Assembly: GCA_025890175.1 (NCBI GenBank)
Contig: JANPYM010000003.1
Location: forward strand, 1,974,823-2,038,822
Direction of reading: 5' to 3'
Origin: Ciborinia camelliae
Taxonomy: Eukaryota; Ascomycota; Leotiomycetes; Helotiales; Sclerotiniaceae
DNA: 64,000 bases
Each line of letters begins with the position of its first letter. Within the stretch, counting starts at the first letter, position 1. This document shows, one piece after another, positions 34,301 through 64,000 of the stretch. Under the pieces are notes generated by a model, which saw only the letters and a list, made by a program, of their open reading frames with translations, had not been told where the DNA came from and ran no database searches. Position numbers and translations under genes: made by a program.

Positions 34301-34313
34301 ATTCGATGACTAA

Positions 34314-37110: not shown

Positions 37111-37953
37111 CTAGTCACAATAACATATAACAAAAAGGATAACAGAATGATCCAACTGATATCGAACATTATGAGCATACGTCAAATGAAGTATCTCGAC
37201 AGCAGCAGTAGGACAGTGGTCCACAGGCAAATAGAACATTCACATCCATCTTATCTCGTGGAGAAGAAATTAACAGTGACCAACAACAATCCGACAGAGC
37301 TAACGCATATTATTATATCCCAACATCGGTGGCATGATGAGGCCTGCTATGCACTTGCAATGTAAACAGCTCCCATAAATATTGCCGTGCTGTGCCGTTC
37401 TACCTAAGGTAGGTCGCGTAGCATTGTATGCAGTGAAACCTCAGAGAGGTAGGCAATGTTTACAACTTTAAGATAATTTATTGTAAATTGTAATCCAGAA
37501 ATTACGCGTCTTGCTAAAGTGTTAAATAGAAATCGAGTAACATCCGTTATATTGATGTATAGAGAAAGCCAGGATTACCTAGTCTTAAAAAACTCTTAAA
37601 AACACGTATTTTTATGTTCAGTCACCCTATCCAAGTGGCTCGAGCGTTACGTAGCAAGACGACTGAGACTCGGAAAAGAAATATCGCCCCTGGAACCGCA
37701 AAACAGTCAATCAACCAACAATCAACGTTCTGATCTCCAGCTACCCCCGCAAACTTTATAAGGATACGTCAGCGTTTTAATATTTAATTGCTTCAACACA
37801 ACGAGCCCAGATATTGGACAGCAAACATCAAATAAAAAGGAGTTGTTCACTCAATCCATATCCCGATATTGTGTTCGAACCAGCATCAATCCCTTGTCAC
37901 ACGGCCTAAGGTTCCTCCTGCTGTGCTGTGCTGCATTTCTTCATACATCAAGC
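37111..37953. other. intergenic region and rer2 promoter
   Basis: No conserved frame. The last 200 nt are the probable promoter and leader of the cis-prenyltransferase gene; an in-frame open stretch upstream of 37954 lacks an ATG. Confidence 0.5.
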
Positions 37954-39120
37954 ATGTCCTCGAGGCACGTCTCCCAGCTCCGGAAATGGATGCTAGCCTC
38001 GCCTCCTATCGAATGGGGCATCGATAAGCTGAGAGAGTTACTTATTGGCGCATTGCGACAAGGTCCTATTCCTCAACATGTAGCATTTGTGATGGATGGA
38101 AACAGGCGATTTGCGCGAAGTCATAAAATAGAGACAGTAGAGGGACATAATCTGGGATTTGAGGCTTTAGCAAGGGTTTGGCTTCCTGCAAGACGGTTGG
38201 TGTTCCTTGCTAACATGATTTGCAGATACTGGAGGTCTGTTATAAGTCCGGAGTGAAAGTCGTTACGGTTTACGCATTCAGTATAGAGAATTTTAAACGA
38301 TCGAAATACGAGGTGGATGCTCTCATGGAAATGGCAAAGGTTAAGCTAGTACAATTGGCGCAACACGGGGATCTACTGGACAGATACGGAGCTAGTGTTC
38401 GAGTTCTTGGTCAGAGGAATTTGGTCAAAGATGATGTTTTGGAAGCTATTGATAGGGCTGTCGAGATGACCAAGAACAATGGAGAGTAAGTTGGGTGATA
38501 TCAATGCTCCCGAGTCTGGAATTCACTAACACTACTTTAGTTGCGCACTCAACATATGCTTCCCATACACATCTCGAGATGAAATCACAACCGCAATCAA
38601 GACTACTGTAGAAAACTACTCAAAACCAACACACACACAACAGCGACCTTTCTCGCAGACCCGAATTACACAAAAGCTTAAATCAAGGAATGTCCACTCG
38701 GTACCAGATCCAGCTTTAAGAGCAAGCTCTCCTACCCCCTCGAACATATCCGAGCCGGACGAATCCGTATCATCCTCCACAACCTTAAATCCCGAGTCGC
38801 CGCCAACAAGCAGCCCGGAATCTGGAGTGTTCCCCGACCCCGAAATGATATCGATAGACACGCTTGAAGAAAACCTATTCACAGCTGGAGATCCTCCTTT
38901 AGACCTCTTGATCCGAACGAGTGGGGTCAACAGATTGAGCGACTTCATGCTATGGCAATGCCATGAAGATACAGAGATAGTTTTTTTGGACTGTTTATGG
39001 CCCGAGTTTGATTTGTGGCAGTTTCTACCTGTCCTGGTGGAGTGGCAGTGGAAACAGAAGCACGTGGAAGATAAGGCGCCAGGTAATGGAACAAAAGCAT
39101 CAACTGTTAGAACTCGTTAG
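37954..39120 (+). CDS. rer2: dehydrodolichyl diphosphate synthase (cis-prenyltransferase, Rer2/Srt1 type)
   Basis: Three exons (37954-38175, 38226-38485, 38541-39120) with 50- and 55-nt introns give 353 residues. The catalytic loop is [13 protein letters not shown] (Asp48 binds Mg-diphosphate), followed by [41 protein letters not shown] and [18 protein letters not shown], the five cis-prenyltransferase regions in order. The enzyme adds isopentenyl units in cis to farnesyl diphosphate to make the polyprenyl precursor of dolichol at the endoplasmic reticulum, working with an Nus1-type partner. Residues about 190-265 are a Ser/Pro-rich insert between two conserved regions, common in filamentous fungi. 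The first ATG in frame with conserved sequence is at 37954. Confidence 0.92.
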
Positions 39121-39726
39121 ATATCCAGGGAAATTTTGGGGGGCAAAAGGGCATTATAGAAGGGATTCGGGAGTTCGAGATGATTTTTGCTATGGGAATA
39201 GTATTTTGGAGACTGATAATGTAGGGTAGGGTTGCCGAGCATATCTCTGCAAAATCTGTAGAGATTTACCAAATTGAATCTACTTGTCGTATAAGAACAA
39301 TGGAATGTTGGGGGGAGGGGTGATGATTTAGGTAAAAAGGAAAGAATATTTATTTACGTAGCAATGACAATGAATATCAAAAATAATTCAATTAAGCTCG
39401 GCAGTTTATTAAGCTTGAAAGCCATGCAGACTACCGTAATTAGCCCAATCTGGGCGGTGAGAATTCTGCCCCCGCGCATTTTACCCTAGAAGGCCGGAGT
39501 GATCACCCACCCAGATCTTCTGCAACTCTACAAAGCTGGCAAACGTCTTAACAATTTTGATAGCTAAGACGACTTTCTCGAATCTAATGCCAACTTCCAA
39601 TGGACTTCAAAAGTTAAAAAATACACACAGAAACTCTTTGAATCCGATTTGCGCGTGTCGCACAGCTTCCTCCTCGAATTCCTCTCCTGGTTGTCGAAAT
39701 TGTGGAAAAGTACGTCGACACTCACA
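39121..39726. other. intergenic region
   Basis: 3' flank of rer2 and promoter of the ING-family gene. No further feature was seen; the frame open upstream of 39727 has no ATG. Confidence 0.5.
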
Positions 39727-41968
39727 ATGAAAACTACAAAAGCACCTCCTTCGGACCCCTCTTCGAGCCGCAGAGCTCAACCTCTACGGCAAACACGAAA
39801 TAATCCCCCTAGATCCTCAATCTCTGGCTCTCGATCGTTTGGACCAAGATGTTTGATTGGCGGCGGTGATGGAGTATCGAATGCGGATCAGACCGTCGAA
39901 ATATTTCCTGCGATAACCCAGTTCGCAGATGCTATATCTGCGTTGCCAAAGGAACTCGTGCGACACTTTACATTACTCAAGGAAGTCGATGCGAAAGTCT
40001 TTGGGCCAGAAGAGGAGCTCGCAAGACTCGTCGACATTGCGCTCAACACCCCACCACCGACAACAGCCAATTATTCTTCCAACACAAGATCTGCCTCTAA
40101 GAATGGGCATCATCATTTGTCCAGCATAAATGGTTCATTAGCAAATGCTCAAGGTGGGCCTGCGGGCATGTTGATGGAGATGCAGGGGGAGTCGTTCGTT
40201 CCCGCCAATCCAGCGTATGCTATTTATCATGCTCCTAACATGCCTAGAAGACGACAATTCCAAGCATGTGCTAGTTATATGCAAAATATGCTGGTATCTC
40301 TCGATGAGAAAAACCATGTTATCTCGACCGCTGCCGAAGCACTAAACAAACAACTTGCACGTCTCGATCAATGTTTCCCCCACATCGAAAAAGAAGTGAG
40401 CGAGGAGGCACGATACGGTAGTACTACTCATTGGGCATATCCTGAGAATCGAACATCTAAGGCCAATCCTGGTAGTAGCTCTAGAAGGGACGCCCCTCCA
40501 GTAAACAACCTTAGTGCCGCGGCACAGCATGTAGCAGACGAACACGCTGCGAGGAGTGATGCGAGGAAGCAAGCATTGCTTGCAAGGAAAGGAGCCAAGA
40601 CCCAGCATGCAGATTCGGATTTTGACGATAATCAAGAAGGGAAACGGGCAGAGTCAAGTAAGAGGCCGCACGGAAACAGCAAAGCTAGGAAAGCTGCTAC
40701 TGCAGAGACGCCAACGGGCGTTGGCCTTGGAATAACAAACGGAAATGGCACAAATGGAAACCCTCCTAAAAGGCGTAAGGTCGAGAAAAGTGCAAATGCT
40801 GGCCCATCAGTGGAGCGTGCTATGAATGGAAGTTTTGGCAGTAATGGGACTGCGTCAAAGGGCAAAGCAGTAGCGAGTCCTAGGTCAACTCCAGCACCAG
40901 ATGGAACCAAAAAGCCTGCAAGAGCTAGAGCCGCACCAAACGGACAAGCAAGAAAAAGGTAGGTGATTTGCGCTGTTCGAGAGAAAAAGTATTTTTGCTA
41001 ATTGACGATCAATTAGGAATAACACCGTAAACTCTGCAATGTCGCCATCATTAGCATCCTCTCCGATTCGAACTACATTTCCCGATATTAGACCGCCTGG
41101 GCGGGCATCCCCTGCTCCTGCAAATGGTGGGAGACCGGCTTCAGCAAGGGCTAGACAGAATTCAGTACAATCACTTGCGGATACAGCACGGCGACCTCCA
41201 TCTTCAGCTTCGAACAAGCCAAACGGAAATGCACCTGGCACACCTGATCTGGCAGCTGCTGCAAGTGTGACCGGGAAAACTGTCCCGGAGATCAAGCCAA
41301 CAGCGAAAGACGCTGGCACAAATGACAAGGGAGAAGATCTTCTTGAGGATGCTCAACCACAAAATCCCGAAGTACTAGGCGGCATCGTGGTAGGTAACAG
41401 CAGAGAGAGTATGAAACGAGAAGAGCCTGTAGAATCCAATGGGGATGTCATGCAGGGCATTCAATCAATAGCGATTACCACTACAAAGAGTGGCAGAGCA
41501 AGCAAACCATCAACACCAGCAATGCCTTCTTTCATCGAGCCAGTTCGCTCAAGGTCATCGCGCAGTATTCCAGATCCCGTATCTGCAGCCAAAAGAAGCC
41601 ACAAGAAAGGCGCAGGTGCAGCCGCTCAACTTATTGCCCAGCAAAACTTGGAACTCGATGATACAACAAGTAGTGCGCAAGGCGACGATGAGGAAGCCGA
41701 GATTGATGCAGATGAGCCTACCTACTGTTACTGTAATGGTGTTAGTTATGGTGAGATGGTTGCTTGTGATAATCTCAGTTGTGAGAAGGAATGGTTCCAT
41801 CTCGAATGCGTGGGCTTAAAAATCGCGCCCAAGGGTCATAGTAAGTTCGCCCACTCTTTTGGTACCTCGTGTGAACAAACAAACTAATATGGTATAGCAA
41901 AATGGTACTGCGATGATTGTAAAGAGAAGATGAAGGCCGGGAATAAACGAATCAGTAACGGTCGATAA
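39727..41968 (+). CDS. ING-family chromatin protein with C-terminal PHD finger
   Basis: Three exons (39727-40958, 41017-41840, 41898-41968) give 708 residues. Residues about 50-250 contain the N-terminal ING helices ([31 protein letters not shown], then the [33 protein letters not shown] coiled part). A long Ser/Pro/Gly-rich, basic linker follows, and a PHD finger closes the protein at about 646-700 ([36 protein letters not shown]). The finger has all Cys4-His-Cys3 zinc ligands and the pattern of H3K4me3 readers. Such proteins are subunits of NuA4 or Rpd3-type complexes in the nucleus (yeast Yng2, Pho23, Yng1); which one this corresponds to is not settled here. Confidence 0.87.
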
Positions 41969-43985
41969 GGATAGTCGGGAAAACTACAACAGGACAACGG
42001 AGTTTTTCGGTCTTGTTTTGATACCTAGGTGGCTCAAACTTGTAGCTTTATGGTGCGTACAGGCCCATTGGAGTATGGATATTGGGCGTTAAACTTTTCT
42101 GGGGGCTGCTTACATAGAAACTGCGTTTGTTTTTAATGTATATAATGAAAGTAGATTCGATGAAAATGAATCTTCTCAAAGCAAGTCAGGTCGAAGTGTG
42201 ATGCATATGCATGTGATACCAGGTCTTCTGTAATGCGATGAATTGTGCAAGTGCTATCATCATTAGGTACCTAGGTAGGTATATAATATAAGCTTACCAT
42301 TATTTTGTACTTTTACGTACGCGAAAAGAAACTTGATTAATTGGTTCACGTGATAGAGAATATATTGAACATGTTCGGACTTATCTCATCACCGTTCCGC
42401 TTCGTATCATCCCCAGGAAAGAAACATGCCCTCTGCATCAAACCTATGGAGGGATGCAGTTTATACTCATTTCATACGTATGTCGCTGATGAGCATATTT
42501 TCTTCCATTCATTGACTCCCCTATTATATGATAGCTGTTTGCGACTTTGTTATTTTCGCCATTGCCACATTCATATACATGTATATCTAAGCTGATAACA
42601 TGTACCACTATGCATTTGGGGAGTAGGATACCACCTGCATATTACATTTTTCGAGGCAACAATTCCTGGTTCAGTGACAAGGATTCAGAAAGCGTTACCT
42701 CAACTGGCCGAGATCTCTTATCCTTTGAGTATCTTCTCTTTGATTTGCTTCTATTGGCGTATATTTTGGCGCTCCAACGCGGTCCAACACGCTCCAACAT
42801 GCGAAAGATACTTTTTGTCCTCGCATTCTCCATTAGTGCTTGGGTTAAAAACTAACGTGATTTTACGTTCCCACATGCGTCGCGTTCTAAATCCTTCGTA
42901 CATATAACAATTTTTTATTCGCGGCCCTGAATTATAACGAGTTTAAGATCAATTTTTCCGTGGAGCTAGGAGGCTATTCTTCTTCTGTTCCTCGTTATGG
43001 ATTTATCCATCTTCTTCATCTTCTTAGTCAAGTGATTAGATAAAAGCCGTAATCAGCATCTCCAGAGTTCGTAATGTCTGATGTGCCTGCTTTTCGGTAG
43101 TTCTTTATGGATGCTATCCGTGGTAATGAGAGGAGCTGGAGGTTTGAGGTATGGAAATTCAATCTCGGACCCGGTGCATGTGAAGAAGGTGCTCTCATTG
43201 GCCTTTATTCTCACTATCCATGCCAATTACAATGAATCAGTGAGCAAACCAGATTGCATAATGATACTTGATAACAGAATATTTGAGGTGCATCCACGGC
43301 GTTTTGGACAAAGGCCCAACACAACACAGCCCTGGAATTAAAACAGAGTGACACTTTCACATGACAGTTCCAAGTTGAAGGAAATGAAAACGAGCAAAAA
43401 GACTGAGTTGATCGATAGGTTCCTCGAAAATTAGTCCACATATAACGGAACCTCAAATTTTCCTATGCATTAGGGTCTGATATCCGTGGTGAGATGACGC
43501 GACATCGTATCTAGCTGCAGGTTGGAGGCGTGAAGAGGTTACGTAGCCCCACTCGGGGCGGGCAGGGTTGCAGTCGGCGGACCCTAACAGTTATTCACTG
43601 AACGAGCAAGAGTGCTATAACGAGAACAGCATGCATTATGCATAACGATAATCTCTGGCGCCGTTTTACTACAGCGCTCAAGTAGATACTCCTCACTTTG
43701 CACTCTCCATTGACTTGCTTGCATTTTATCCCGCCATTTTCTTGTATCGATTTTCAGTATCAACTATCAGTTCTCGCCTTCCCTCTTACTCCGAGTCTTT
43801 ATTTCTTAGATCTTGTTTAAACAATCCTCATCTCCATCTTCCTCTGTGTAAATCTACACACAGTTGAGAGCATAGCTTCAACAGTTAAAAGCCTCTTATT
43901 GTTGGACTGCAGTCCGGACTATTTGACACACTAAGCCCTCTTACATCTGTTCCAATATCGGCCATTTAAATTTAGCTCCGCACTG
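41969..43985. other. intergenic region, no gene supported
   Basis: About 2 kb with only unrecognised short frames. A TACCTAGGTAGGTATATAATATA stretch lies near 42267-42290. The last few hundred bases resemble a CT-rich promoter (43680-43870) and may have belonged to the broken gene that follows. Confidence 0.5.
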
Positions 43986-45510
43986 ATAATCATTATAATA
44001 GGTGGGTGGGATGTTAATGAAGCCCTTAATGCAGTGTTCAACAGACACCACTCATATATCCTTTGGCTGGTGTACCCCTTAGGGGTGTTGAAAATGCCAA
44101 GGCAGACGGCGTTCTCCTTGCACCACCATTCATTGAGGAAGAAGGTAAAAACTCCGAAATGCTTGATTTCTTGGTCAAGAATATCGGTATACTTCTGTAC
44201 GGTGGTGGGGATATGTCACAGGGCATAGGTGACAAGATCTCGAAGCAGATCAAGCTATCCATGATCTTATGTTCCACGGAAAGTGTTGCTTACCCGGCAG
44301 TTTTTTCTAGCGACAAATGACCAGTTGATGACTGGAAATAATTTTATTTCAATCCAAACACTGGTATCTAACTTGTACCACACTCAGACAACTGCTATAA
44401 AGCAGTCTAAGTTTGTAATCCTGACCCTGGAAAGGAACAACTAGTTTTCTCAGTGTCCCAAGTTTGAAGAAGGGGAAACTCATAATCTCTACGCTCCACA
44501 TATTTCCATCCCCGGTCTTTGGGTTTATTCAGGACGAAGTGATGATATTCTGGTCCTCTTGATGAACGAAAAAGCCAAGCCTGTAAGATAGAGTAACATA
44601 TCTCACACAATCCCAAAGTTTGAGCAGCCCTCGTCGTCGGTGCTCACAGATTTCAGACAGCGTTACTTGTTGAGTGAACATCTCCCCAAACGCTTTCCAC
44701 GGTTGAACGGACAGAAACAATCGACCGCGTCTGGCCAATAATTTAGGAGGCAAACCAGGAATGCCCACGCCACGCCCAAGTCGCCAAATCTCACATATTT
44801 TTCACCCATCCAGATGACCCCATGGTGAGATCAGGGAAGGGGGGCATTCAGGGGCGACCAACACCGGATCTCTACGCAAAGGAGATCAACGATCTCTATG
44901 CAGGCGCGGATAAAATGTTAGCTTCGGCTCCATTGGATATCGTACCCGAAACTCTCACTGATGATGCCACAGAGTCTCTTCTTATGGGCTACTCGGAGTC
45001 GAAGTTTATCGCTGAAAACGTCCTTTCCTACAGTGAGGAAAGTTTTTCCCATATGCCAATCAGCATTGCTCGCATTGGGCAATTGCAGGACCCGTCTCCA
45101 CCAAAGGAATCTGTAACAAACGAGTGGTTTCCAAGTCTTGTGCTTAGTTCCACCCACCTGGTGTTATTCCCGAATCACTGAATCCGACAGATCATAGCGA
45201 ACTTGATTGGATGCCCATTGACCTCATCGCTGACATCCTTGTAGAGCTCATATTCGGTGAGAGAGAGTATCAAATCGAGAGAGCCAAGGTTTGTCATCTT
45301 GTCAACCCAGTTCTCGTTTCGTGGAAACCCCTTCTGCCCACGATCATCGAGGCCACTACACCAGAGCAAAAGAATAAGCCGGTTCCTGTACCTTTTCCGA
45401 AATGGATTGATCGTGTTCGAAAAGAAGCTGATAATCTACATTCTATGGTCATGTTGGAGAAGAATTCGACGATCAAACTCTTGTCTTTCTATGATGGATT
45501 AGCGAAATGA
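43986..45510 (+). pseudogene. NRPS-like (adenylation-reductase) gene remnant with internal deletion
   Basis: Pieces of one gene type lie in order on the plus strand but in changing frames. At about 44063-44320: GVLLAPPFIEEEGKNSEMLDFLVKNIGILLYGGGD, an adenylation-domain core. At about 44370-44590: an A-domain tail ending in ISIPGLWVYSGRSDDILVLL. At about 44770-44935: AKSHIFFTHPDDPMVRSGKGGIQ...DLYAGADKML, the end of the A domain. The next residues jump straight into the reductase domain (LMGYSESKFIAENVLSY, then ISIARIGQ...SEWFPSLVLSS...LDWMPIDLIADILVE). The carrier domain and the first half of the NAD-binding reductase are missing, and there are stops and frame changes. The family resembles aminoadipate-reductase-like NRPS-like enzymes. 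It is not functional. Confidence 0.72.
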
Positions 45511-48500
45511 AGAGGCACGAGAATCTTAGAGATTAGGAAAAAGGTACAGACGAGTGAGAAATTGCGCGGATTGAAGGGTATCGAAGGAGCATGGGTTGAG
45601 AAATCGGCGCAGGGTTGGATTAAATGAAGAAATGTATGTTTTAATCCTTTTGAGAGAATGGCGAATTTTTCGGGGGAAGTGATTGGATATTGAGATATTT
45701 TGAGCTACAGTACTAGACCACTTCTATTTGTTCGACAGGGGTTTTGCACCAAAAGTCAACCACTTTAATAATTTATATAATTTCTAATATCAATAGAATT
45801 ATTTTTATTATTTATAATATAGATTATTTCGAAAGAAAATTCGATTAAAAAATATATAATTTATTTTTAGAAATTTTCTAATTTATATAATTAAGATACA
45901 AAGTTATTTAATAGTTTTTGAATCAATTTTTGCGGGGAAAATCAATAAAAAATTTAATTTCAACTTTAAGGATTAAATATTTCACGAATATAATTTTTTA
46001 GCTTTTCAAAATTTAATTATATAATCTTTTTGTAAAAATCTTTAATATATTAATAGGAATTAATGATTGAACTTTTAATCGTATTAAAATATTAAAGTGA
46101 AATGTATGTATTTTGATTGATTTGGGTATAAATTTAAGGTTCAACTAATATAAGTGGAGGGGTACTGTAGGTTAACTCGAAATGTGATATCAAACCAAAC
46201 CTTGGAATTGTAAGACTCCAAGTGTCGGGTCTTTGTCTGATGGTGACTTGATCCCAATACGATATCTGTATTTATTGGCCCACGTGATGGACGATACATT
46301 TGAAAAGGAAAGTCTCGTTCCAGTCGAGTTTTGAGTGAATGTGGAGTGCATTAGGGGGTAAAGCGGTAAGGCTTTCGGCACATGGTGCTGTGCAAGTGAT
46401 TTACCCCGTACTTTTCCCCTGTGCTTGTACCACCCGACTTGAAATTTTCTTGATGTGCGCCAATGGGAATCTTCATCGAACGTTGGTATAGTTTTAGGTC
46501 TAACTTAGTCCCCCTTTTTAGCCTAGGTAGACCAGTGGAGGTAGACATAACGTGGTAATAATGCATTCAAGAAGTTGGGATAGCTTTCCCCATATGATTT
46601 CTAGACACCTGCAACCTTATTTGTACCATAACTAGGTCCTAGTAGCAGCAGTGGCTGTAGCTGGTAGCTAATTAATGGAAATCAACCAATGATGATCTCT
46701 TGGATATTTGACACATTCCTGGGGTTTCGACCCAAAAGACTAGGGTTAGGTATTTCTCTTTCCCCAGATTATGGATTGATTTGGGCATTGTCGGATTATC
46801 CTAATGTAACCGAGTCTGGGCGTCTCTAAGCGACCCAATGATTACCCGATCCGATCTCGGCGTTTTTAATACCTTGTATGGTAATTTGATTCTTCTGCAC
46901 TTCGCACACAAAACCTTATAGAAAATACGTTAAGATGTACGTGATACGAATAAGGAACATCTTTCAATAATACATCAAGGTGTCTTCCTAGTTCATATTT
47001 CATACCTCCATCTATAATCTCGTACCCTCTCACCGAATCCCATCATTCCATTACTTTATAAGAATCCTTTTATAATATATCCTCATAGAAGATTTAATTC
47101 CGAAGACGTAATAGCTGCATTCCTGCCAAGCCTTATGATTTCTGCTTCTCCGCTGCCAAACCTACCCAGGTACCTACCTCCAGCTATAGGTATTTCATGT
47201 TTACTGCAGCATTGGGAGAAATTAGTAGACATCACGCGTCTCGTTTGGTCTTCACTTGAAACAGACCACCAGGCAGGCAGGCGTCCATGCTAGGTACATA
47301 TTCTTTGAACAAAGAAATATCAATCTGGAATCTTGGGCGCCATTGTGTTGGGATTTCATGGATGGATTTTATTATATTATGCCATCAACCATGCAACTTG
47401 CGAACAATGAATGCCCAGGCCCCAGGTGAATGGAATGACTGTGATGATATCAGCCTCTAATGATTCTTTTGTTTTGCATTACTCAAATGATTCATGGATT
47501 TTGAATCACCTGAGCAATTATTATTCACTTATTACCTAATACCTAATATTCACGTATGATCTAGTATTCACTTCCGGTCCCTACCGATATATCTACCTAG
47601 TAGGTACCTATCTGATGGATATTCTATCAACCTAATCATTAGATTCCATTCCATTCATACCCAGCATCCAAGCAATTTGCAAACCACGAATCCACACTAT
47701 TGGGGCGTGGGAACGATTCATTTGAGGTGATTCGTGAAGATGAGATAAGATGCGACGAGATGAGAAGAGATGAGAAGAGAAAGCAAAAGATAGAGAAAGA
47801 GAAAGACGTAACTCGGAACCTTAAGGTTATCATATCATTATTATCAGCACCTGGGCCTACCGGCATTGTCTCCTTATCAGATGGACGGCTCTACCAAGGC
47901 ATCTTAAAGTTTGATTAGAGTTTTTTTTTATTTGATATTTCATTCCACGGGTGCCACTCTTCTACGGCAAATCTACGCCTTCCTTCTCGTAGTCAATGGT
48001 CATGCCTTACAAACTAAGTTAACCAACCCGTACGGATGATCCCTCCACCTTTGCTTTTTTTGCTAAAAGCATGAACTTGATCTTGAACTTTAACTTTAAC
48101 TCTTTAACTCCTGCTCAATCACAACGTGAGGACGCATCTACAACACATTCACATACGCATTCACACTCTCAAAGCCAAGGCAATACTTGAACACTTTCTT
48201 AATTCTATTATCATCAGACAATCCCTTTCATCTAACAATCAATCATTCGACGTGTGTCATAAAGAACCCCTCCGTTTCCCCGCATATTAAATTTGTGGTT
48301 TGGGATCTTTTTACGAAATTGAGAATTCGTGACTAAGAGATTTTCTTCACCTCGATTTTTTTTCTTCTTTGATCAACCTTTATACAGTGCGAGTGCAACC
48401 ACATTTTACATTCACCTTCTATTCGTCTCTTTCGTTGGGTTGTCCGAATCACCTGGAATCACAATTACTTATTCCTGCCAAAATTCCCCTCATCCAAGGT

Positions 48501-48526
48501 CGCGTGCAACATAAATTCCATCCAAT
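45511..48526. other. intergenic region, about 3 kb, no gene supported
   Basis: Apart from an AT-rich block (45740-46140), nothing conserved was found. There are (GAGAT/GAAGA)n-like purine runs near 47735-47805 and TACCTAGGTA palindromes near 47165 and 47595. The last 300 bases are the CT-rich promoter and leader of the F-box gene. Confidence 0.55.
45740..46140. repeat. short AT-rich block, possibly a RIP-mutated repeat relic
   Basis: About 400 nt almost free of G and C and rich in TA steps (ATTTATATAATTTC, TTTATAATATAG), sharply different from both flanks. The look matches the large AT-rich block at the right end of the window. It sits just after the NRPS-like pseudogene. Its origin as a mutated repeat is inferred. 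Confidence 0.45.
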
Positions 48527-50739
48527 ATGGCTTTGGCAAACTCAAACATACCGCTGCCATCGAGGCCTTTGAAATCGGCGCCTAACTTAATAGCCCGCAA
48601 ACATTCTATTACACCACCAACCTCGGATCGTGGAGACAGGACGAGCTTTTCAAGTGTAAAAGAAAATACTTCTGGAATTCCTCAATCATTCACGGACTCC
48701 AAGGTTAGCTCTTACCTGAAATACGAAGTTGACGGAAACGAGATCGCCATCGACGACGCGAGCAGCGGAGGTGCTCTAACTCCCCCAGAAAACGTGGAGA
48801 TTGACATGCCAACATTGTGGTCTACAAACCCTCATAGCACCCCCCATGGACTGGTTTGCCCCTGTGATGGCTTCCGGGGCTGGAAGCAGATCGCAGTACG
48901 TGGTAAGGTTGCAAGTAAAAGCTACAGTGATTTGAGGAATATGAAAATGGGCTGGGGATGGGACGGCGACGACTATGAGCCAAAACTTAACCCCGAGCCG
49001 GAATCGAAGAAAGAGGCAGATCCGGTCATGGAAGGAGCCGGAGTCAGTATTTCTGGAAAGTCTCCGATCGAGATGCTACCTGCAGAACTACTTGGTAAGC
49101 CATTTCCCTTTGTGATAAATTCCACCAACCGGATTACTGGATATATATTTACAATACGAACGCGTCTGCTCGCCCAAATCGACTCCAAGGAATCAACCCT
49201 CAGGATACGGGTGATGATGTAGTCACATGACTCTAGTTCCTCTGGGACATCTGGGAACAGCTTTATCCACAAGTCCACAATAATCCTGTGGATTGCCAGG
49301 AGCTTGAGGTTCAACGTATGCCTATTATGACTTTTGGTATAGTGCTAACATCAACAGGCGCCATTATTGATCAGCTTGTCACGGATATTCCCCCAGGCGG
49401 AATCACACCACGCAATGTTGACTTGATGTCTCTCCTCCTTACGTCGCACACGATGCATTCGGCAACCCTGGCTTCTTTGTATACAAAGATCACTATTCCG
49501 CACTCCCGGGTCTTCCGTAAGTTTCTGGCCCACATCAGAGAATACCCAGCTCTAGGCACGATTGTCCGACGATTGGACTTCTCTCATTTCAACCCAACTG
49601 GTATCGGCCTCACCGCTAGACAGCGTGCCGAGACATTGAACTTGATTCCTGCAACCCTTCTCGAATGCCTGTCCCTAACCCCAAATTTACGAGAATTTTT
49701 GAGCCAGGAGCACATCGATGACGATATGGATGCAAAGGTTATCCAAAAACTTCTCTGCGACTCACCAAATTTGCAAGCGCTGGATTTTTGTGCCTGTTCA
49801 TCGGCCTCTTTCCGCGACGCCTTCACCGCGGTCATGAATACCTGCCCACTTCCTGAAGTTCTTCCCATCACCAGGTTGAGTTTCCACGAATGCACAAATT
49901 TGCCATCCTCAGTTTTCGAGACCCTGATTCCACGACTTCCGCACTTGACCCATCTTGACGTCGCGCATACTCGCATCACCGACGAAATTCTTTTCTCGAT
50001 TCCCCAATCAGCTAGACTTACACATTTGAATATTAGCAAATGTTCTTACCTCTCAGGAGAGCGGGTTGTCGAATTTCTCAGCATACACCCTGCTGCCAAA
50101 TCGCTAGTCTATCTCAACCTCGGTTCCGATATCAAATCTCACGAAATGTTCAATCGTTGCGAGGTTACAGCTCTACTTCCGATCCTCCCGAATACTCTTC
50201 GATCCTTGAGTCTCAAAGGTAGCGAGATGCACAGCTCGCACATTTCGCTCTTTCTGCCACTTACAAAACATCTTGAGGAACTTGGTCTTGGCCATGGCTT
50301 GGTATTGTCTGATATCCGTCGCCTGTTTGTACCAGACCAAGATGCTAGTATCGAAGAACAGATTGGCTGGGTTCCGCACACGCTACACTATATCGATGTT
50401 TCCGATCTTTCAAAGGTCCAACTCGATCTAGGTACTTTGTTCGGATCCAGCTGTCCAATACTCAGGAACGATACCTTGCCTCTCGAGGTCCTCGAGATTA
50501 GTCTAGAATGTTTCAACATCATGAATACCAGTTCCCTCGTGAAGCGCGCAGGTTGGTGCTTGAAGGAGGCCGGTCGAAGATATTGGCTGGTTCGCGACGA
50601 TAGTCATATCGAGGAAAGCAAAAGAGACTGCGGAGGAAGACAATGGAAATGGGGAGCTAATTACTGGGGTATGAGAAAGGTGCCTGTTGCTAGAGCGGAG
50701 GTGGGAGGCATGTATGGTCATTACATGTTTAAGCGATAG
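48527..50739 (+). CDS. F-box and leucine-rich-repeat protein
   Basis: Two exons (48527-49094 and 49358-50739) across a 263-nt intron encode 649 residues. The first ~175 residues are polar with no recognised domain. An F-box-like motif spans about 177-230 (PIEMLPAELLGAIIDQL...LMSLLLTSHTMHSATLASLYTKI). From about 270 to 520 there are irregular leucine-rich repeats (LQALDFCACSSAS, LTHLDVAHTRITDEIL, LTHLNISKCSYL, LVYLNLGSD, LRSLSLKGSEM). The end is a conserved-looking tail (GGRQWKWGANYWGMRKVPVARAEVGGMYGHYMFKR). F-box LRR proteins recruit substrates to SCF ubiquitin ligases; the substrate here is unknown. It is the nearest gene to the PKS but does not look like a pathway gene. Confidence 0.82.
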
Positions 50740-52582: not shown

Positions 52583-55500
52583 TTAAGCAGACAGTAACTT
52601 AGCAAGCCCTGAACCCCATGAAGCAATCTGTTTTCGCATGTTAGTGATATAATCGTTTATAGAGATGGAGGAAATAATTGTCTTACCATAGGAGGCGTCA
52701 TCATGGAGAAGTGATTGCCGCCAGCACGAACCACACTCACGCTGCCTAGAAGCTCATTCCATCCGAGGGATCCATCGTCTGTCCGATCGTCCAGGAACCA
52801 TTCCACGATCTTTTCCTCCTCCGGAAGAGCCTTTGGTCGGGGCACCTTATCCTGCTTGTCCACTCCTTCTCTCGCTGAAAAAAGTGTAGCCTGCGGTATT
52901 TTCCTGCCTGGAAGCGGACTCACTTGGTATCTCAACAACTGCTGCCTCGCGAGCGTGAAGTGGTCATTCTTGATAGACTGACCTTTGGTCTTCTCTTGAA
53001 TTCTGTCCTCCTTCACCACGCTGGTCTCAATAATCAAATCCAAAAAGTCAGCTAGAGAGCTCGGCAGAGAGGTTGCAAAGGTGGGGCATGCCGTATCGAT
53101 AAGGAACAGCCTTTCGACCTCGTTTCCATCTTCAAGCAGTTGTCGCGCCGCCTCATAGGCGATCACACCACCAACCGAGTACCCACCAACTAGATACGGG
53201 CCCTTGGGCTGCCGATGCTTGATCTCGGCCACGTATATGGCGGCGAACTCCTCGATGGTGGGCGGGTCCTCCAAATCGGGTTTGTTCTTGAGGAAAGGAC
53301 TGTTGAGCGCGTAGACAGAAACATCATTGATACGATCGAGCAATGGTGCAAGAGAGCCAAACACAGCGCCAGAGCCAAACCCATCTGGGCATAGGAACAA
53401 GTTGCGGTCACTGGACCCTGAAGTCGCGCGGTGCAAAAGCATTGAGGTGGCCTTCGTGGGACACGGCTGGTCAAGTTCCGCTGCCATGCCACAAATCACC
53501 CGAATGCCACGGGACTCACGACTTGAACTCTCAGACCAGTCGACGTGCGCGAATCCGGAATCCCGCATGACCCGCTCCCAGGCCCATGGGTTCTGCAGCG
53601 CGTATTTGCGGCCGTCATCAAACAGCCACCATCCATCTAGCAATCCCCAGACCAGGTCGTACCAAGCCAGCTTTTGAGTCAATTCGACCAGCGCTACGCA
53701 ACCATCAGACCGCACCATTTTGCGAATGTTGCCCAGGCAGCATCGTAGGTCGCGCGTTGCGTGCACGCAGTTGCTCGACACGACCATATGGTAGCGCCCC
53801 AGCAACTCTGCAGGAGGCTCCTCTTCGATGTTGAGTTTCCGGAACTCCATACCGACGATGCCCTTAAAGACCGTTTTCTTAGCCCGCGCGAGCAGTGATA
53901 CTGAGAGCTCGGTAAAGGTGTATATGAATGGGAGCCCGGTAGCTTGGAGGAGCGGCACGAGATGCTTGGTGGTACCACCAGTCCCGGCGCCGATCTCGAG
54001 AATCCGGAAGGGCTCGCCGTCCGAGGCCTGAGCGTGGATGGCGGCGGATAAGAAGTCGCAAAGCACTTTCGTGGTGGCCAGCAGGTCAGGCCCGTTGGCG
54101 TAGAAATGTTCGAGGAGGCTGCGGCCCTTTTCGCTACCGAACAAGAGGGAGACAGGATCGGATTTGCCGGTGAGACACTCCGCCAAGTGTGGTCCGAGGA
54201 GGTCGGGTAAGCCGTGTGTGGATGCGAACTGAGGGAAGTCTGAGATGAGGTCGCTGCTCAGCTGCTGAGCAGACTTGCCACTAAGGTCACCGTTGAGGGG
54301 TGTTGAGCCGCGTACATAGTCGTCTCCTTTTTTCTCGGCGACGCCGGCCTCTTCCAATATTTCCCAGAGCCGCGGGACTTCTCTGTGGTACTTTGGCAAC
54401 GTCTCTTGTAGAGCGGGAAGCTTCTCCCCTTGTTTGAAATTCTTTATGGGACAGCCGAGCTTCTCGAAGGCTTCGGTGATAAAGGCCGTGACAGTGATCA
54501 GCTGCGGCGGGTATACCTCCTTCCAATAGCCTGTGTGCTGAGTCTCCTTGGCATGCACATCGAAGTTGCGACGGACCTCCTGGAAAGCTGTGTGCATCCA
54601 GTTCTGGTTGGCTTTTTTCGGCGTGGTTGTGCCAGTGTCTAGAGTCAATGGGCTATCGGTTTTTGAAGTTGACTGTGTGGGGGAAGTGTCGGATAGACTG
54701 CTCAAAGGTGTCTGCACTGAATCAAAACCCGCAGCATCTGCAATGTGATTACAGAGGGATATCATATCGATGATTGAAGCGAAATCCGTCGATGATATAT
54801 TGACATTGAACGCATCACTGAGGTTGCTGATAATCTCCGCCGCAACAAGAGAGTCGGCGCCGAGATCCTCGAGGTTCGAGTCCATCTGAATCTCTTCAGC
54901 CGGTACGTCAAGAGATTTGCTAAGGATCTCCACAACCGTCTTTTGCCATTCTGAACTCACCTCGTCGCCTGTGCCCGAGAAAGCATCTGGCGCTTGCTCT
55001 TCCTCATCGTTCTCGCTGGTTTCAGAAACTTCGCCACCAACCTTCGTAGAGATTAAGCTACACAAAGATGCGACGTCGGTAAATGTTGCGAAGAGATCGG
55101 TGGAAATATCGATTTTGAACTTGTCGGAGATATTCGCCAGGATTTCCGCGCTAACCAGCGAGTCTGTACCAAGATCTTCGAGCGTAGCCTGTTTTGTCAC
55201 TTCCTCGATGGGAATGTCCAGGGACCTGCTAAGGACTTCTTGGACGCCACTCAATACGTTAACTGCGTTTGTATCGCCTCTGGTGGATTTCTTTGGAGGA
55301 GCTGCACCATTCGCTTGATATGTGCTCTTTGGTATTGGAGAATCTAAAGTTGGCTTTGACGGGCCAGTGGAATGCTCCTTGAGGACCAGGCCCGGATTAG
55401 CTCCCGCTAGCATCTTTACCAGCGAGTTCCGGGGAACCCTCGAGAACTTGAGTCCCTTAGCAGACCAAATAATCTTCTTGCTCTGCTGGTCAAGCGCGAA

Positions 55501-58500
55501 CACATCTAGCACTGCCTCCTTGTTACTCTCCCGGACAATCTGCGTGTACGCTCTGTATTTCCCACTACCCTGGAGTCCATTCAGGGGCCCGACAGCACCC
55601 ATGCCCGTGCAGATGTAAGACATGCCACCGTTCTCTTCTTCCTCGTTGTTGCCACGTAACGAGTGCACGAACGCACCGGGAACTTGCAAGAAGTTATCAA
55701 TAACCAGCGGGTCGGCAATGTTAGCGTTCGGCGTCCTGGCCATAACGTCTAGATTGTCTGGCATCGTTATTTCGCCTGCACCCTCGGTTCCCTTACCAAC
55801 CAAGTACCGCAAGCCCCGGTAAGGTGGCGAGTACTTGGCCATTTTCTCAAACACCTTGTATACCATTGTACCCCGCAAGGCCTCTACGTCGGTGTCTTTT
55901 TCTAGCAGGCTGGATATTCGAGCCCACTTGTCTTTATCGTCCTGTTGGTTGTTGATATTACGGCTGCACAGAGAGATGATGCCTGTTGCGTGCGAGGTTG
56001 GCCTATCGTTATTTTTAGCAGAGGACAGCTCGAAACCCCACGTGTCCTCGGTCTTTTTCGTTAGTATCACCTTGATGGAACGCTGCGAGTCCAGGCCTAG
56101 GGGTGCCTTGATTTCCAAAGCTTCGGCCGCGAGTTCTGTGGCAGCACTCATCACCTTTGCGTTGTGCAGCAAGGCAATGGCGTGCGAGGGCAGCTCCAGA
56201 TACATTGCCGCCGGAGATATTGGGGACCCCACCACAGCGTGGCCCTTGACGAGCTCCTGGAACCGTCTACTGCGCGTGTCGACCTTAAAAACGAACTTGC
56301 CCGCGCCTTGGCTCTGGGACTTGTCTTGCTCGATGTATGGGTAGTCACAGATATCCTTCAAGCAATGAGGACATCTTCCAGATAGTGCTGGTACGTGCTC
56401 ATCAGTCTTCTTGCTTCCATCGTTAGACCGAGGAATGTACTCCAGCCAGTGTCTATGATTCTCGAACTGATACTGCGGTAGAGTCACGGGTACGTAGTTT
56501 TCTCGCTGGCTCCGGTGGAATGGCCAGAATTGCCCATCCGACTGACCGCTCTTCCACAGCGTAACTGTGGCGTCTGCAAGGGACCGTGCTGGGTCTTTGC
56601 CACTGATGGCCACAAAGGTGTGCTGGGCCTGTGCCTGGGCTTGTGGCAGCGCGTTCCGCGCCATGGCGATGATGGGGCCACCAAAGCCGGCTTCCAGAAA
56701 CGTACACGGGCCTAGACGGTTCACGATGCGTGAGATAGCTTGTCCAAAGTACACAGCCCCGCGTGTGTTGCGGGCAATCACGTTGACGCCGGGGCCAGTC
56801 CAGGGTTCTTCGTGGCAGGATTCGAAGGGGAAGGTTGGGTCCTGTTTGAGTGAGCATGTTAATGGTCGGTTAAACGGCAGCGGAGAAAGGGAAAGTGTAT
56901 CAGCAAACTGAAGCTCATGAAGCTTCATTAGGGATTTTTCAGCACTGACCTTGAAGGGAATCGAAGCCGACAACTCATTACTCGCGTCGACGATCGAGTC
57001 AGCCATGCTAGAGTGGTACGCACGCATGCCCTTCAGGACCTTGAAGCGTAGCTTCTCGCCGCTGGACTTTCTGTCGTTGAGGTACGATTCGAGAACTTCG
57101 ATGTCCTTTGTGCTCCCCGCGACAACGTAGTTGTTTGGCCCGTTGTAACACGCGATATCGAGCTTGGTCTCTGGGTGCTTCTTACGAAATGGCTCTAAAT
57201 TCTCCTCTGGGGTTGTACCTGTCCCGGTCAGATCGGCTTCTATGGCTACCATCGACCCAGTATCGTCTCCCCAGAGCTTCTGTATAATAGATGCACGACC
57301 TGCTCGCACGTTAGTATCGTATAATTATTTTACCGAGAGGATTATTCTAGAATTTAGAATTTACGTACTATAAACCAGTTAGTATTTATAATAAAAGCTA
57401 AACAAGCATTCTAATCAAATACAGCTTAACAAAAAGAATGCATACCCAGTAACAAGTCTAATACCAGACTCGAGTGTCAAGGCACCTGACAATGTCAATG
57501 CCGCCCACTCACCGAACGAGTGACCACTGACCGCCTGGGGCTTCACGCCAGAGTCTATCCATGACATGCCGCACGAGTACTGAATGGCGAACATAGCTGC
57601 GTGGCGGAGGACGAGGTCGGTGTCACCTTGTAGTCCCTGGAGAACAGCCGGAAACAGGCTGGGGAGGCCGAGCGATTGCATCACTTCATCGCATTGGTGC
57701 ATGTGCGTCCGGAATAGCAGAGAGCTATTGTATAGAGGACTGGCTGACTGTACGGTGTTACCGTTCTGCCCGCTGAAAAGAAGCACGATAGGCTTGGGTT
57801 TGGTGGATGCAGTAATGTGCTTTTCTGGGTCGGCGAGCTGGCCTTGCAAATCGTTCACTAAGTTGATGAAGGGATTTAGCCATTGCTCTCTGGAATTCAA
57901 AACAAGTTGGGGATTACTTACAAGATGTGGTCGTTGTGGCGAATACGTGCTGCAGCTGACGATTCTGTTTCGTCGCCAAAGCGAAAGCTAGATGAGCTAG
58001 TTCTGGTGCTGACGAGGTCTTTTCGATCTGGTCTTTCAGCTTGTTGCAGTAAGCCAAAAGGCTGACGCTAGAGGCGGCGGCAATAAATATAGGCCAAGTA
58101 GAGACGGGAGGGGTAGACACTGCTGATTCTATCACCGTTGGCGAAGACGATGGTCGTGTAGGCGGAGGCGCAATGACAGCAGCGGCATTGTTGCCTGAAG
58201 CACCGTAACTGTTAACCACTGCGAAACGCAAATCGTCACGCCACTCCTTCAGCGATGTTGAGATCGCCATCTTATCAGGCTCGAGGGCCGAAATATTCGG
58301 ATTCAATGACTTGAATTGAGCCTGCGGAGTGATCTTGCCGTGCTTCATCATGAGCAGGACCTTGATCAGCGAGATCACTCCTGAGGACCCCTCTGAATGC
58401 CCAATGTTGGGCTTCACCGCACCAATGTGCAAGGTAGTAGACCTATCCTTCCCACCGAGAACCTGACGGATGCCTGCGACCTCTGTCGGGTCACCGGCGC

Positions 58501-60877
58501 GTGTGCCCGTGCCGTGGGCCTCAACGTACGACACATCTTTAGGGTTGACTCCAGCACGGGCGAGCACATCTCTGTATAGCGCTGCCTGGCTCTCCAAAAC
58601 AGGGTTCGTGATACTTGTAGTATTCATATTCTGGTTGTTGCCTGTCGACATCAGCACACCTTGGATGTCATTCCCATCCTTCAGCGCCCTCTCAAGCGGT
58701 TTGAGTATCAAGACACCCACAGACTCGCCACGGCAGTACCCATCAGCTAGGGCGTCGAAAGTCTTACAGGGGCCTGTCTCGCTCAGAAATCCACCTGTGC
58801 ACAGGGCGTTGAACAATGCTGTATTAGTGATTAAGTTGACGCCACCTGCAACGGCTTGTGTACACTCGCCCACTTGAATGGCGCGGCAAGCTTGGTGGAT
58901 AGCGACCATGGCCGACGAGCAGGCCGTATCGATGGTCTGGGAGGGACCTGTCCAGCCGAAGTGATGGCTCAGTCGTCCGGCAACAAATGAGCGGAGCATA
59001 CCGAAGCCGGTATATGGTGAGGTGGGGTGGCTGGCTAGGTTCAGGGGGTAGTCGGGCGCGTTCATACCGATAAAGCAGCCTGTCGTATCGATGGTTTTTG
59101 TTTTGTCATTGGTTTCTGCTTCCTGATGCTGGTCATCGCCCAACCAGCCTGCGGTTTCGAGTGCGTGGTACGTGGTTTCGAGCAGCACGCGCTGGTGCGG
59201 ATCAAGTGCGGCTGCTTCGCGCTTGGATTTTTTGAAAAATTGATGATCGAACGACTCGGCATCTGACAAGAAGTTCCCCCACATCTTACCCTTTTTGGCT
59301 GCGTCGGGGAACCGCTTCACGTCGATCTCACGCAGCATACTCTTGCCGGTCTGAATCACTTGCCAGAGGTCGTCAGGAGTATCTCCGGCTGCTGTCCGAC
59401 AAGCCATGCCCACTACTGCCACTGCATGCTTCGGATAATTGCTGTAAGTCGTCTGCTTTCTTTTCATACGCGGCGTGATGTTCTTGAGCACCGGGTGTCG
59501 GACTGGCTCATCGGCGTCTAGCTCTAACACGCGAACCACCGCCACGTGATCACTCCCGAGGCTCGCGAAACGATCCCAGGCCTCAAAGGCTTCATTTTTG
59601 CTTATTTCCCCAATGCCTCTGGCCTGCATACCTTTGGTGATCATCCGCGTCGCCGATTTGCTCTCCGCCATCAAGCCCACGCCATGCCAGGAGGTCCATA
59701 ATATTGACATGCTGTTATCGCCCTGACAACTTCTCTGCGCCGCCAATCCGTCTAAGAACGCGTTCGCGGGTGCGTAGACCAATTGGCCGGAGAACCCAAC
59801 GAGCTGTCCGATGGAAGATGTGAGGATGAAGAAGTCCAGTGTGCCAGGGGGAAATAGGGTGTCTAGATTCAAGGAGCCGATTACCTTAGGCGCCAATATT
59901 TCGGCGACATCGGAAGGCGTGCAACGCTCGATTGTATTGTAACCTGCGATCCCAGCCGCGTGAACTACTCCCTTGATCGGCGGGATGTGCAGATTGTCGA
60001 TAGCCTTTTTCAGCGTGGAGTCTCCACCGGGCTTGCTAATATCAATGGCTAGCACATGGACCGTGGCTCCCAGAGCCTCGAGCTCCTTAATCCGCGAGAT
60101 GAGCTTTTCATTACCGGCATCTTTCGTGTTGCTGTCAAGACTCGGCGACAGGCCACGTCGTGACACCAGTACGATACTACGAGCACCGCGCTGACCTATC
60201 CAGGTCGCAATTTCTAGGCCCATCCCTCGGGTTCCACCTGTGATGAGGTAAGAAGAACCCTCCGGCTTGAACTGTAGCTGTTTCTTGTCATTGGACTGGT
60301 CTGGAAAGGGCTGCAATAAAGCTCTCTGTGCTATTCCTTTGCTGACCCTGACAACGTCGAAGCCACGTGCGTACTTTATGGCGGATAACGGAAAGGATCC
60401 TTGGTCCTCCTCAAATAGTCCGCCAAATATCTCCGGTATTTCTATCTTCATCACCCGCGCCAGGCCAGAAAGCGGGGTATAACCTAGGTCGCCGATTCCG
60501 CCATTCAAACTGATAAGCGAAAACAGCTTAGAAGTCTTGTTCTGGCCGGATTTGCTATTCTGGTACAGCAGCTGCGCAGCTGCAATCAAACTGGTGCACG
60601 ACTTGGTCGCAGCTTCGTAAATGCCAGTTTTAGTACTCGCTGTATATGGGATGTGGACAATAATTGTATCCGGTGCCAACAAATGGCCGAGCTCTGTGGC
60701 ATCATTGACAACCGCAATTGCATAGCCAGCATCAGTGAGCTGTTTTTGGTATGCGGAGAGTATCTCGTTATGTTCCTCGTTATCGACTAGGAAAGCCACC
60801 TTTTGGAAGCTCAACGCCTCCTCGGAGAGTGCAGCAGGTTCCCAAGCGAGCTGGTGAATCAGCCCGTTGGTGCTCAT
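52583..60877 (-). CDS. polyketide synthase, KR-KS-AT-PT-ACP-ACP-CMeT-TE
   Basis: Five exons: 60877-57922, 57857-57446, 57299-56950, 56841-52687, 52627-52583; about 2638 residues if the frame problem at the second intron is bridged. Domains (approximate residues): KR 1-470 with structural half, TGGTRGMG 213-220, Ser355, Tyr368 and Asn372; KS 485-905 with DTACSS Cys653, His788, His827; AT 985-1370 with GHSFGE Ser1099; PT 1420-1720 with His1440 and Asp1621; two ACPs near 1780 and 1880, each with DSL; C-methyltransferase about 2000-2370 with LEIGAGTGG; thioesterase to the end with GYSVGG and GNHFSMM. The KS-to-TE body is that of methylating non-reducing PKSs (mycophenolic-acid MpaC type), which make methylated aromatic polyketides. 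The usual SAT domain is missing and KR occupies its place. The second intron (57445-57300) has a good donor and a TACTAAC branch but is out of phase by one base. Product unknown. Confidence 0.9.
57300..57445 (-). other. PKS intron 2 with phase conflict (possible one-base insertion)
   Basis: On the minus strand the donor reads ACTGG|GTATGC and the acceptor GAGCAG|GTCGT, with TACTAAC 9-15 nt before the acceptor. These leave two plus two bases at the junction, so the frame is lost right where the AT domain should continue LVTGRASII. No other AG near the acceptor fits. The three-G run at the donor (CCC at 57445-57447 on the plus strand) with one G fewer would restore phase. A weaker in-phase donor (GTATTA, inside SGIRL) exists but removes five conserved residues. 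Confidence 0.65.
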
Positions 60878-60985: not shown

Positions 60986-60991
60986 TATATA
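60986..60991 (-). promoter_or_regulatory. TATA box of the PKS gene
   Basis: TATATA within CATATATAGTTAC on the minus strand, 109 nt before the PKS start codon. Its spacing supports the N-terminal KR as the genuine start of the protein. Confidence 0.5.
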
Positions 60992-61499: not shown

Positions 61500-64000
61500 G
61501 TAGTATCGCAACAACATTATAAACTTAGTATTTTTATTTATAAGAAGCTAATAGTTGTAGTTTTATCTTTAGTAATTGAATTAATTAATTTTATATTAAA
61601 TCTAGGAATTACTAGCAACTAGTATTAAGATAGAAAATGCAAGAAATCAATTAGGTCAATAATAGCTTCAAGACTTTTTATTGTTTTCTAAATAAAATTC
61701 TTATTATTTTTTAAATAATTAGCGATATATTATTAATCACTATTTAAACAATAATATTTCGTTTAATATAAAATTTTATAAACTTTTAAAGTTTTTTTAT
61801 TTAATTATATAAATTTATTTTGTATATATTAATATTTTATAAATTAAATATTATATTAAAAATTTATTATTAATTAATATTAAATGTTAATAATTATTAA
61901 TATATTAATTTTAAGTTTAAATTTTATATTTAAATATTTTTTTTGTTTTTATTGTTTTTAAATTTATAATAAAGTTTTTCTTTTTAAGATATTTTGTCTA
62001 AAAAATTTTATTTGTTAGAATTTATTGTTTATATATATTAAGATATTTTTTTAGTTTATATTTTTATGATTATTTTTTTATACAAATAATAATTTTTAAG
62101 CGATAATTTATTTTTATTAATTTAAGATTTGTATTATTAATAAAATATTAATTTTAAATAAAATATATTTTGATATTATATATTTATATTACCCTATTTT
62201 TTTTAATTTATTAAAGGTTTTACAAATATTTAACAAATATTAATTAAATATCAAAAATTATTTTAACAATTTTATTTTTGAAGTTTTTATACCTAAAATT
62301 TTTTTTTTAATATAAAAAAACAAAAACTTTATTGATTTTTTTATTAAATAATTAGATTTTATATTTTTTATTATTTAAAGTATTTATATTTTTTTTATTT
62401 TTGTAATTTAAAATTTAAACTTTTAATTTTTATTAATATTATTTTTTATATTTTTTTATATTTTTTTTTTTAATTAATTTTTTTATCAATATTATAATTT
62501 TTTTTATTTTCTTTATAATAATTATTTAATATTTTATAAATATCTTTATAATTTTTATTAAATCTATTTATTTTTATTATACAAAATTAATTAATTTTTA
62601 TAAAATTAAAAAAATATTAAAAAAAAATAATATTATAAATTAAAAATATTTGTTTTTTAATAATCTTTTATTATTATATAATAAATATATTTATAAAAAA
62701 AAACCTTATAATTTATTATTTAAACAATTTTATTTTAATATTAATTAATTGTTTTGTTATTAATAAAAATATAACAATATAAAGTTAAATTTTATTAAAA
62801 AATAAAAAATATAAGATTATTTTATTTTTTATTAAAAAAAATATATTTTAATTATTTTTATTATAATTTATAAAACGAAATGTATTAATTTAATATATAA
62901 ACTTTATAATATTAAAAAAACTGTTATAATTATAATATTTATTTTTTTTAATATAAATATAATTTTAACAAATTTATTAGATATTTATTAATATTCTATA
63001 AACTACTTTTCATTTATTTATTAATTATTAATTAATATATATAAATACATTTTTTGTTTTTAATTAAAAAAACTAAAAATATAAAAATTAAAAATATATT
63101 AAGCTTTAATTCGAATAATAAAGATTTATTAAAGAAAAAAACAAAAACCTTTGCCTCGATTATTTTTTCTACTTTTTTATTTTTGCAAAGAGAAGAAAAA
63201 AAAAGATTACCGCAAAAAATAAAAAAAAGGCTACTCCAAAAAATAATGTTTTCGCTTAAAATATTTTTCTTTATTTTTCAAAAAGAATTTAAATTTTTAA
63301 AAAACTAAATTTTAAATTGTTTTATAATAAAAATTAATAGAAAAATAATTTTTTTAAATTAAAATTTTTAAAAATCAAATTTTTTAAATCCTTTTAATCA
63401 TTTTTAAAACTTTTTAGCTTTCGAATTATTTACTTTATTTTAGCTTTTTACAGTTTTTTAAATATTAAATAATTAATACATATCTTTCTTTTTTCGAAAT
63501 ACAAAATCTATAAATCTTTTTAAAATATTATTTCTAATTTTTTTTTGTTTTTTAATCTTAACTTTTTTAACAATATAAACATAAATACAAATAAAAATAT
63601 TATTATTTAATAAATAACCGATTTTTAATATATATCAAAAATTAATTATTTTTTTTTAAAACCTTAATTTTTTAATTTTGTTTTATTTTTTAATAAAAAT
63701 TTATTATCGAACATTTATTTCTTATTATTAATCAACAATAATTTTTTATTTAAACCTTACATTTTTTATAGATTTTAATAATATATTACCAAAAAAAATT
63801 AATATATATATAATTTGTTTTATTAATCTTTAAAATCTTTTTTTAATAATAATTTAAATATTATTAATAAAAATAATTTTTTTTTATTTAAAATTGTTAA
63901 ACAATAATAAAAAAAATACAAAATTTTTTAATAATTTAACAATAAAAATAAATAAATTTTTTTTTTACACTTTTTTTTTTATAAATATAACTTTATTATT
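61500..64000. repeat. extremely AT-rich block (RIP-like isochore), runs off the window
   Basis: From about 61.5 kb the sequence is almost only A and T, with very high TpA content and long A and T runs to the window end. There is a transition from about 61.2 kb. The one open frame (63054-63308) is Lys/Phe/Ile-rich as expected by chance. In filamentous ascomycetes such blocks are transposons mutated by RIP, often at centromeres, subtelomeres or between gene islands. No transposon family can be read. A mitochondrial origin is unlikely because it is contiguous with nuclear genes. Confidence 0.8.

Follow-up and report, generated by a model that had tools for sequence, protein, structure and literature searches.

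Analysis of a 64,000-nucleotide stretch of Ciborinia camelliae contig JANPYM010000003.1 (the window; part of contig C21 in a genome of 46.2 Mb and 27 contigs) identifies a polyketide synthase (PKS) gene, on the minus strand from position 60877 to 52657, that encodes a ketoreductase (KR) ahead of the ketosynthase (KS), in the place of the SAT starter domain. The KR-first domain order is real, and we estimate a probability of about 60% that the window PKS belongs to an uncharacterised family, reported earlier, of fungal non-reducing-type PKSs in which a working KR stands in for the SAT. This explanation is the best supported because KR and KS share one reading frame, the motifs of the KR are kept, the KS lies near those of methylating PKSs, the same order is reported in Aspergillus, and a SAT is dispensable in the PKS ArmB; the closest PDB sequences to the C-methyltransferase (CMeT) and thioesterase (TE), and the separation of the KR from the KRs of three reducing PKSs of the same genome, lend further support. 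A preliminary description of this DNA had read the gene as possibly encoding an enzyme of a new kind; the order of domains, the lack of a SAT and the intact-looking KR on which it relied stand, and its claim to novelty does not hold, since the architecture is already in print.

Domain order and the absent SAT

An uninterrupted frame of 985 codons runs from the ATG through the KR, the linker and the KS to a GTAAGT donor at 57921, and Pfam identifies both domains within it, as the preliminary description had stated. The probability of a stop-free run of this length by chance is ~1.6e-18 (simple per-codon estimate at 54% GC). GC content is level across the gene (KR, 0.528; KS, 0.547; exon 3, 0.539), and codon usage in the KR correlates with that in the KS (0.84) and in exon 3 (0.86), vs. 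0.57 when the reading of the KR is shifted by one base. Because GC content and codon usage continue through the KR, the linker and the KS, KR and PKS look like one gene. Upstream of the ATG only four codons are open before a stop. The TATATA reported there is present, as a pattern match only, 114 nt rather than 109 nt before the start; at the other end, the gene finishes at the stop codon at 52659-52657 and not, as first given, at 52583. Two of the canonical gene models yield proteins of 2663 or 2677 aa. The gene (52657-60877) has a GC content of 53-55%, vs. 43.5% in window positions 30000-50000, a difference that could reflect coding bias or a different history.

A Pfam scan of three reading frames (exons 1, 2 and 3), with the NCBIfam model for the product template (PT), finds an AT, a PT, two ACPs, a CMeT and a TE after the KS, in agreement with the preliminary description, and the catalytic motifs sought by pattern matching are all present. 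The same scan gives no SAT match in the PKS protein, and none of the 14 SAT matches genome-wide (0/14) lies inside the window. The protein therefore has the PT, ACP and TE of a classical non-reducing PKS, lacks the N-terminal SAT of that class, and carries a reductive domain foreign to it. Its sole KR in the three frames is N-terminal, and not after the AT or DH and before the ACP, as in 6-methylsalicylic acid (6-MSA)-type and highly reducing PKSs. What is found is the arrangement of an N-terminal-KR non-reducing PKS: a KR for the SAT, beside the KS, on a non-reducing template with a PT.

The ketoreductase, the ketosynthase and their relatives

The PF08659 match of the KR reaches 178 bits, where the cut-off is 22.6. 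In a PDB search, residues 133-413 of the query align to EryAI KR1 (chain residues 146 on; 2.7e-27), and the alignment takes in the end of the structural half (YTPLSGLARVMKIEIPEIFGG) and TGGTRGMG, with K, S, Y and N in place. Catalytic and cofactor roles in KRs are assigned to these four residues and to the cofactor motif. By these marks the window KR looks complete, as had been proposed. The LDD motif, a mark of B-type bacterial KRs, was not seen in it. A structure predicted for the KR half from its sequence alone had a mean pLDDT of 34.9 and was set aside as a failed prediction.

In the PDB the KR matches the KRs of bacterial modular PKSs best (EryAI, 99 bits), ahead of the fungal LovB (51 bits) and psoA (44 and 43 bits). 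We compared the window KR (230 residues) in a tree with KRs from 28 of 32 loci, comprising 25 bacterial loci, all from one bacterial order (56 of 200 genomes of the order have a match), and three reducing-PKS KRs of the same genome; loci L005-L008, with aligned pieces of <150 residues, were left out. The three own-genome KRs form one group (support 0.94), and the window KR, whose branch measures 1.49 substitutions per site, falls outside it and adjoins 12 of the 25 bacterial KRs (support 0.91). The placement is weak because the branch is long, the bacteria are from one order, and the fungal KRs number three. Identities are 27-34% to bacterial and ~32% to own-genome KRs on the tree alignment, and 29-39% (25 bacterial loci) and 34-40% (three fungal) in genome searches; one scan of bacterial genomes found just one match, a weak one (25% identity), and in a plasmid search the best place was <60% identical in all 581 records with a match. 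The comparison indicates that the window KR is divergent and is not a recent copy of the three reducing-PKS KRs, and the idea that it was recently copied from them is rejected. A recent bacterial source is likewise not shown, with bacterial loci 29-39% identical and every plasmid place <60%; an old bacterial origin may account for the tree position.

The KS was compared with 12 loci of its own genome, 10 of which have a KS match (the SAT loci on contigs C25 and C12 have none in the stretch examined). It is 51% and 49% identical to the KSs of SAT-bearing methylating PKSs on contigs C2 and C23, 45% to that of a SAT-bearing PKS on contig C22 (77% covered; one C22 exon piece reaches 51% over 163 residues), and 39-42% to the seven others, among which two are from SAT-bearing PKSs and three from reducing PKSs. 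A tree of own-genome KSs places it with those of C2 and C23 (support 0.89); in a tree made without the C22 KS the grouping is not resolved (0.25 and 0.47). The tree with the C22 KS favours kinship with methylating PKSs. Elsewhere in the protein, the CMeT region is closest in the PDB to citrinin PKS chain 5mpt (2.1e-81), norsolorinic acid synthase is the closest PDB match of the TE (1.6e-37), and the three HTH_51 matches in the genome are in the C2, C23 and window PKSs. Chain 7zma was rejected as KS kin; its high score sums two matched stretches of one chain.

Proteins with this order have been reported. Gilchrist et al. (2021; PMC8582187) describe Aspergillus non-reducing PKSs, of textbook type in other respects, in which a KR near the KS replaces the SAT, and hypothesize that this KR performs reductive processing as in reducing PKSs. 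Table 4 of an earlier study (2014; PMC4073137) lists for A. flavus AF70 and for A. parasiticus BN9 a KR-KS-AT-PP-TE protein of 2648 aa, with an RPKM (reads per kilobase per million mapped reads) of 0.0 in both, that was not found in A. flavus NRRL3357 or A. oryzae RIB40. Among 17 non-reducing PKSs treated in PMC12470490, only Bik1 may have a DH and a KR. The architecture is thus already published, an outcome that the preliminary description had itself named as refuting its reading; its statement that it knew of no characterised enzyme with this order agrees with the open-access literature, in which we found none, although one may exist in subscription papers or preprints, which were outside the scope of the search.

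Alternative explanations and a proposed mechanism

Intron 2, inside the AT, is where the gene is least straightforward. Exons 2 and 3 are in the same frame, so that only an intron length divisible by three would fit; at this site the paralogues on C2 and C23 are uninterrupted. The best-looking donor, at 57445, makes with the acceptor at 57300 an intron of 146 nt, out of frame, that leads to an early stop. No open single GT-AG intron directly joins the conserved AT flanks, and of the two-intron models with this donor (acceptors 57300 or 57303) none stays open (0/16). A sequence error or a damaged gene is possible, because no canonical splice unites the conserved flanks in frame, and the protein would then be truncated within the AT. 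We nevertheless consider a non-functional gene or misassembly unlikely: on either side the frame is open (985 and 1555 codons), with motifs and coding bias, and canonical in-frame introns do exist, for example 57422-57300 (123 nt, adding 8 residues) and 57464-57300 (165 nt, removing 6).

A KR that is structural or vestigial, filling the place of the SAT without reducing anything in an otherwise ordinary methylating non-reducing PKS, would fit the long branch of the KR and the finding that ArmB deleted of its SAT gives products mirroring those of the full enzyme (PMC10401856), which implies that catalysis is not required of an N-terminal domain. The retention of every catalytic and cofactor motif sought, in a domain scoring far above its cut-off, makes this somewhat less probable again than a damaged gene. 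That two genes were misread as one, or that a SAT exon lies upstream, is very improbable: the 3,972 masked bases beyond the window leave room for it, but KR to KS is stop-free with similar codon use, the upstream DNA is very AT-rich, and the same order is in print for Aspergillus (PMC8582187; PMC4073137). A hidden upstream SAT, with no match in the window, is rejected.

Several points weigh against membership in a KR-for-SAT family with a working KR. The case is built from sequence, from which the activity of the KR and the product are predicted. The motif patterns were composed with the sequence in view, the PT scores 119 bits, below the curated cut-off of 168 (TIGR04532), and intron 2 leaves the AT uncertain. 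Among the best 60 of 157 PDB sequences, bacterial CurL gives the KS a higher score (292 bits) than do norsolorinic acid synthase (252) and CTB1 (247), both fungal and non-reducing, which makes close kinship with these two less likely. The relationship to the Aspergillus proteins would be a matter of architecture and length, the comparison with fungi outside this genome consisting of a few PDB chains. Finally, reduction confined to an early step is a guess, and another cycle is possible.

According to the mechanism we propose for a KR-for-SAT enzyme, acetyl (or malonyl) would be loaded without a SAT, via the AT or straight onto the KS; after the first condensation, one of the tandem ACPs would carry a diketide; from its N-terminal position beside the KS, the KR would reduce the early beta-ketone with NADPH; the KS would extend the reduced starter with no further reduction; and CMeT methylation, PT folding and TE release would follow. 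The product would be a partly reduced, methylated aromatic or pyrone-type compound, with a side-chain hydroxyl or a lactone closed through it. The KR is probably active. Given activity, action mainly on the first condensation product is a tentative assignment at slightly worse than even odds, and the early-reduction timing as a whole is doubtful. It is also only a speculative proposal that one enzyme here replaces a known pair, the KR making the reduced starter that a reducing PKS would supply and the remainder carrying out the non-reducing extension of a SAT-bearing PKS; if true, fungal PKSs would have a third programme in addition to the reducing and the non-reducing one.

Surroundings and comparison with known systems

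Table 1. Coordinates of the PKS gene, its domains and associated features (window positions unless marked C21).
Feature	Position	Strand	Details
Exon 1	57922..60877	-	ATG at 60877; 985 codons, no stop; N-terminal region and KR, KS, KS-AT linker
N-terminal region	60254..60877	-	residues 1-208, taken as structural (pseudo-KR) half; residues 1-132 presumptive
Ketoreductase PF08659	59684..60253	-	residues 209-398; 1.5e-52; TGGTRGMG, K in PKVIG, S in TSSI, YAPAN
Ketosynthase PF00109 + PF02801	58313..59425	-	residues 485-855; 5.4e-70, 4.7e-35; DTACSS, EAHGTGT, NIGHSE
Intron 1 (model)	57858..57921	-	64 nt; GTAAGT...TTAG; frame kept
Exon 2	57446..57857	-	AT N-terminal part (PF00698, GHSFG); 3' end uncertain
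Intron 2 region	57300..57445	-	not cleanly resolved; best-looking donor out of frame with acceptor
Exon 3	52657..57299	-	AT C-terminal part, PT, ACP, ACP, HTH_51, CMeT, TE; stop codon 52659-52657
Product template TIGR04532 (NCBIfam)	55405..56319	-	2.2e-34, 119 bits; GHAV, VIDNF
ACP 1	55051..55269	-	GTDSL
ACP 2	54775..54939	-	GADSL
HTH_51 (PF18558), methyltransferase helix-turn-helix domain	54316..54582	-	Pfam scan
C-methyltransferase core	53548..54042	-	LEIGAGTGG
Thioesterase PF00975	52912..53403	-	GYSVGG; GNHFS further on
TATATA	60986..60991	-	114 nt before ATG; pattern match only
Tailoring-type gene run	C21:2049505-2071625		L026:1506-9891, L027:584-9859, L066:2095-3825; outside window, on PKS 5' side

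To the left of the PKS, the 20 frames scanned match an amino acid permease, SLC12, Aa_trans, ING, a prenyltransferase, a nitronate monooxygenase, an aspartyl protease and LRR: transporters and other genes outside secondary metabolism, plus a fragment of an AMP-binding enzyme. Short frames at 44747-45510 resemble the final part of an adenylation domain (PF23562) and also, as judged by eye, a reductase domain, and look like a remnant of a nonribosomal peptide synthetase (NRPS)-like gene. To the right, on the 5' side, GC falls to 8% in 62001-64000, and unmasked 500-base bins in C21:2043000-2047999, which precede the tailoring genes, are at 7-16%; 3,972 bases just beyond the window, within this AT-rich block, are masked. 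Very low GC, as in this block (62001 to ~C21:2047999), is characteristic of sequence that has undergone repeat-induced point mutation. Beyond it lie genes for a P450, an O-methyltransferase, an aldo/keto reductase, a metallo-beta-lactamase-fold protein, a GMC oxidoreductase and another P450; a further P450-like frame there was judged by eye. These are possible cluster partners of the PKS, which may be the backbone enzyme of a cluster; this role is only a suggestion because ~14 kb separate the PKS from the first P450. Among the candidates scored on C21, no other KS match is within 1.6 Mb of the PKS (47 of 69 scored), and none anywhere on C21 is an AMP-binding match (14 of 80 scored), both counts being lower bounds. 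Separately, the better of two 5.8S rRNA matches in the genome (C12:671681-671832, equal to L034:1501-1652; 85 bits; 39 of 1350 candidates scored) appears degenerate by eye.

Fungal iterative PKSs are usually divided according to their reductive domains and their way of loading the starter, and a KR-first family does not fit this scheme. The window locus adds a case with a methyltransferase, a TE and two ACPs, in a genome whose two SAT-bearing methylating paralogues could serve as controls. Those paralogues (C2 and C23) and the citrinin PKS type share with the window PKS a KS, AT, ACP, HTH_51 and CMeT, and DH-fold matches at the expected place of the PT; the paralogues have a weak SAT match (5.5e-10 and 1.3e-9) and no KR in the frames scanned, whereas the window PKS has a KR and no SAT. 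In bacterial modular PKSs the KR comes after the KS-AT of its own module. EryAI KR1 has the same motifs as the window KR over aligned residues 133-413, and the window KR, unlike EryAI KR1, precedes the KS. The basidiomycete CoPKS1/4 and SAT-less ArmB resemble the window PKS in starting a chain without a SAT; the word "ketoreductase" is absent from the main text of the paper describing them (PMC10401856), whereas the window PKS has a KR. The nearest match in architecture is with the Aspergillus KR-first PKSs (PMC8582187; PMC4073137): the domain order is the same, the listed length of 2648 aa compares with 2663 or 2677 aa for the window models, and the window PKS has both a methyltransferase and a PT, neither of which is listed in the Table 4 entry of PMC4073137.

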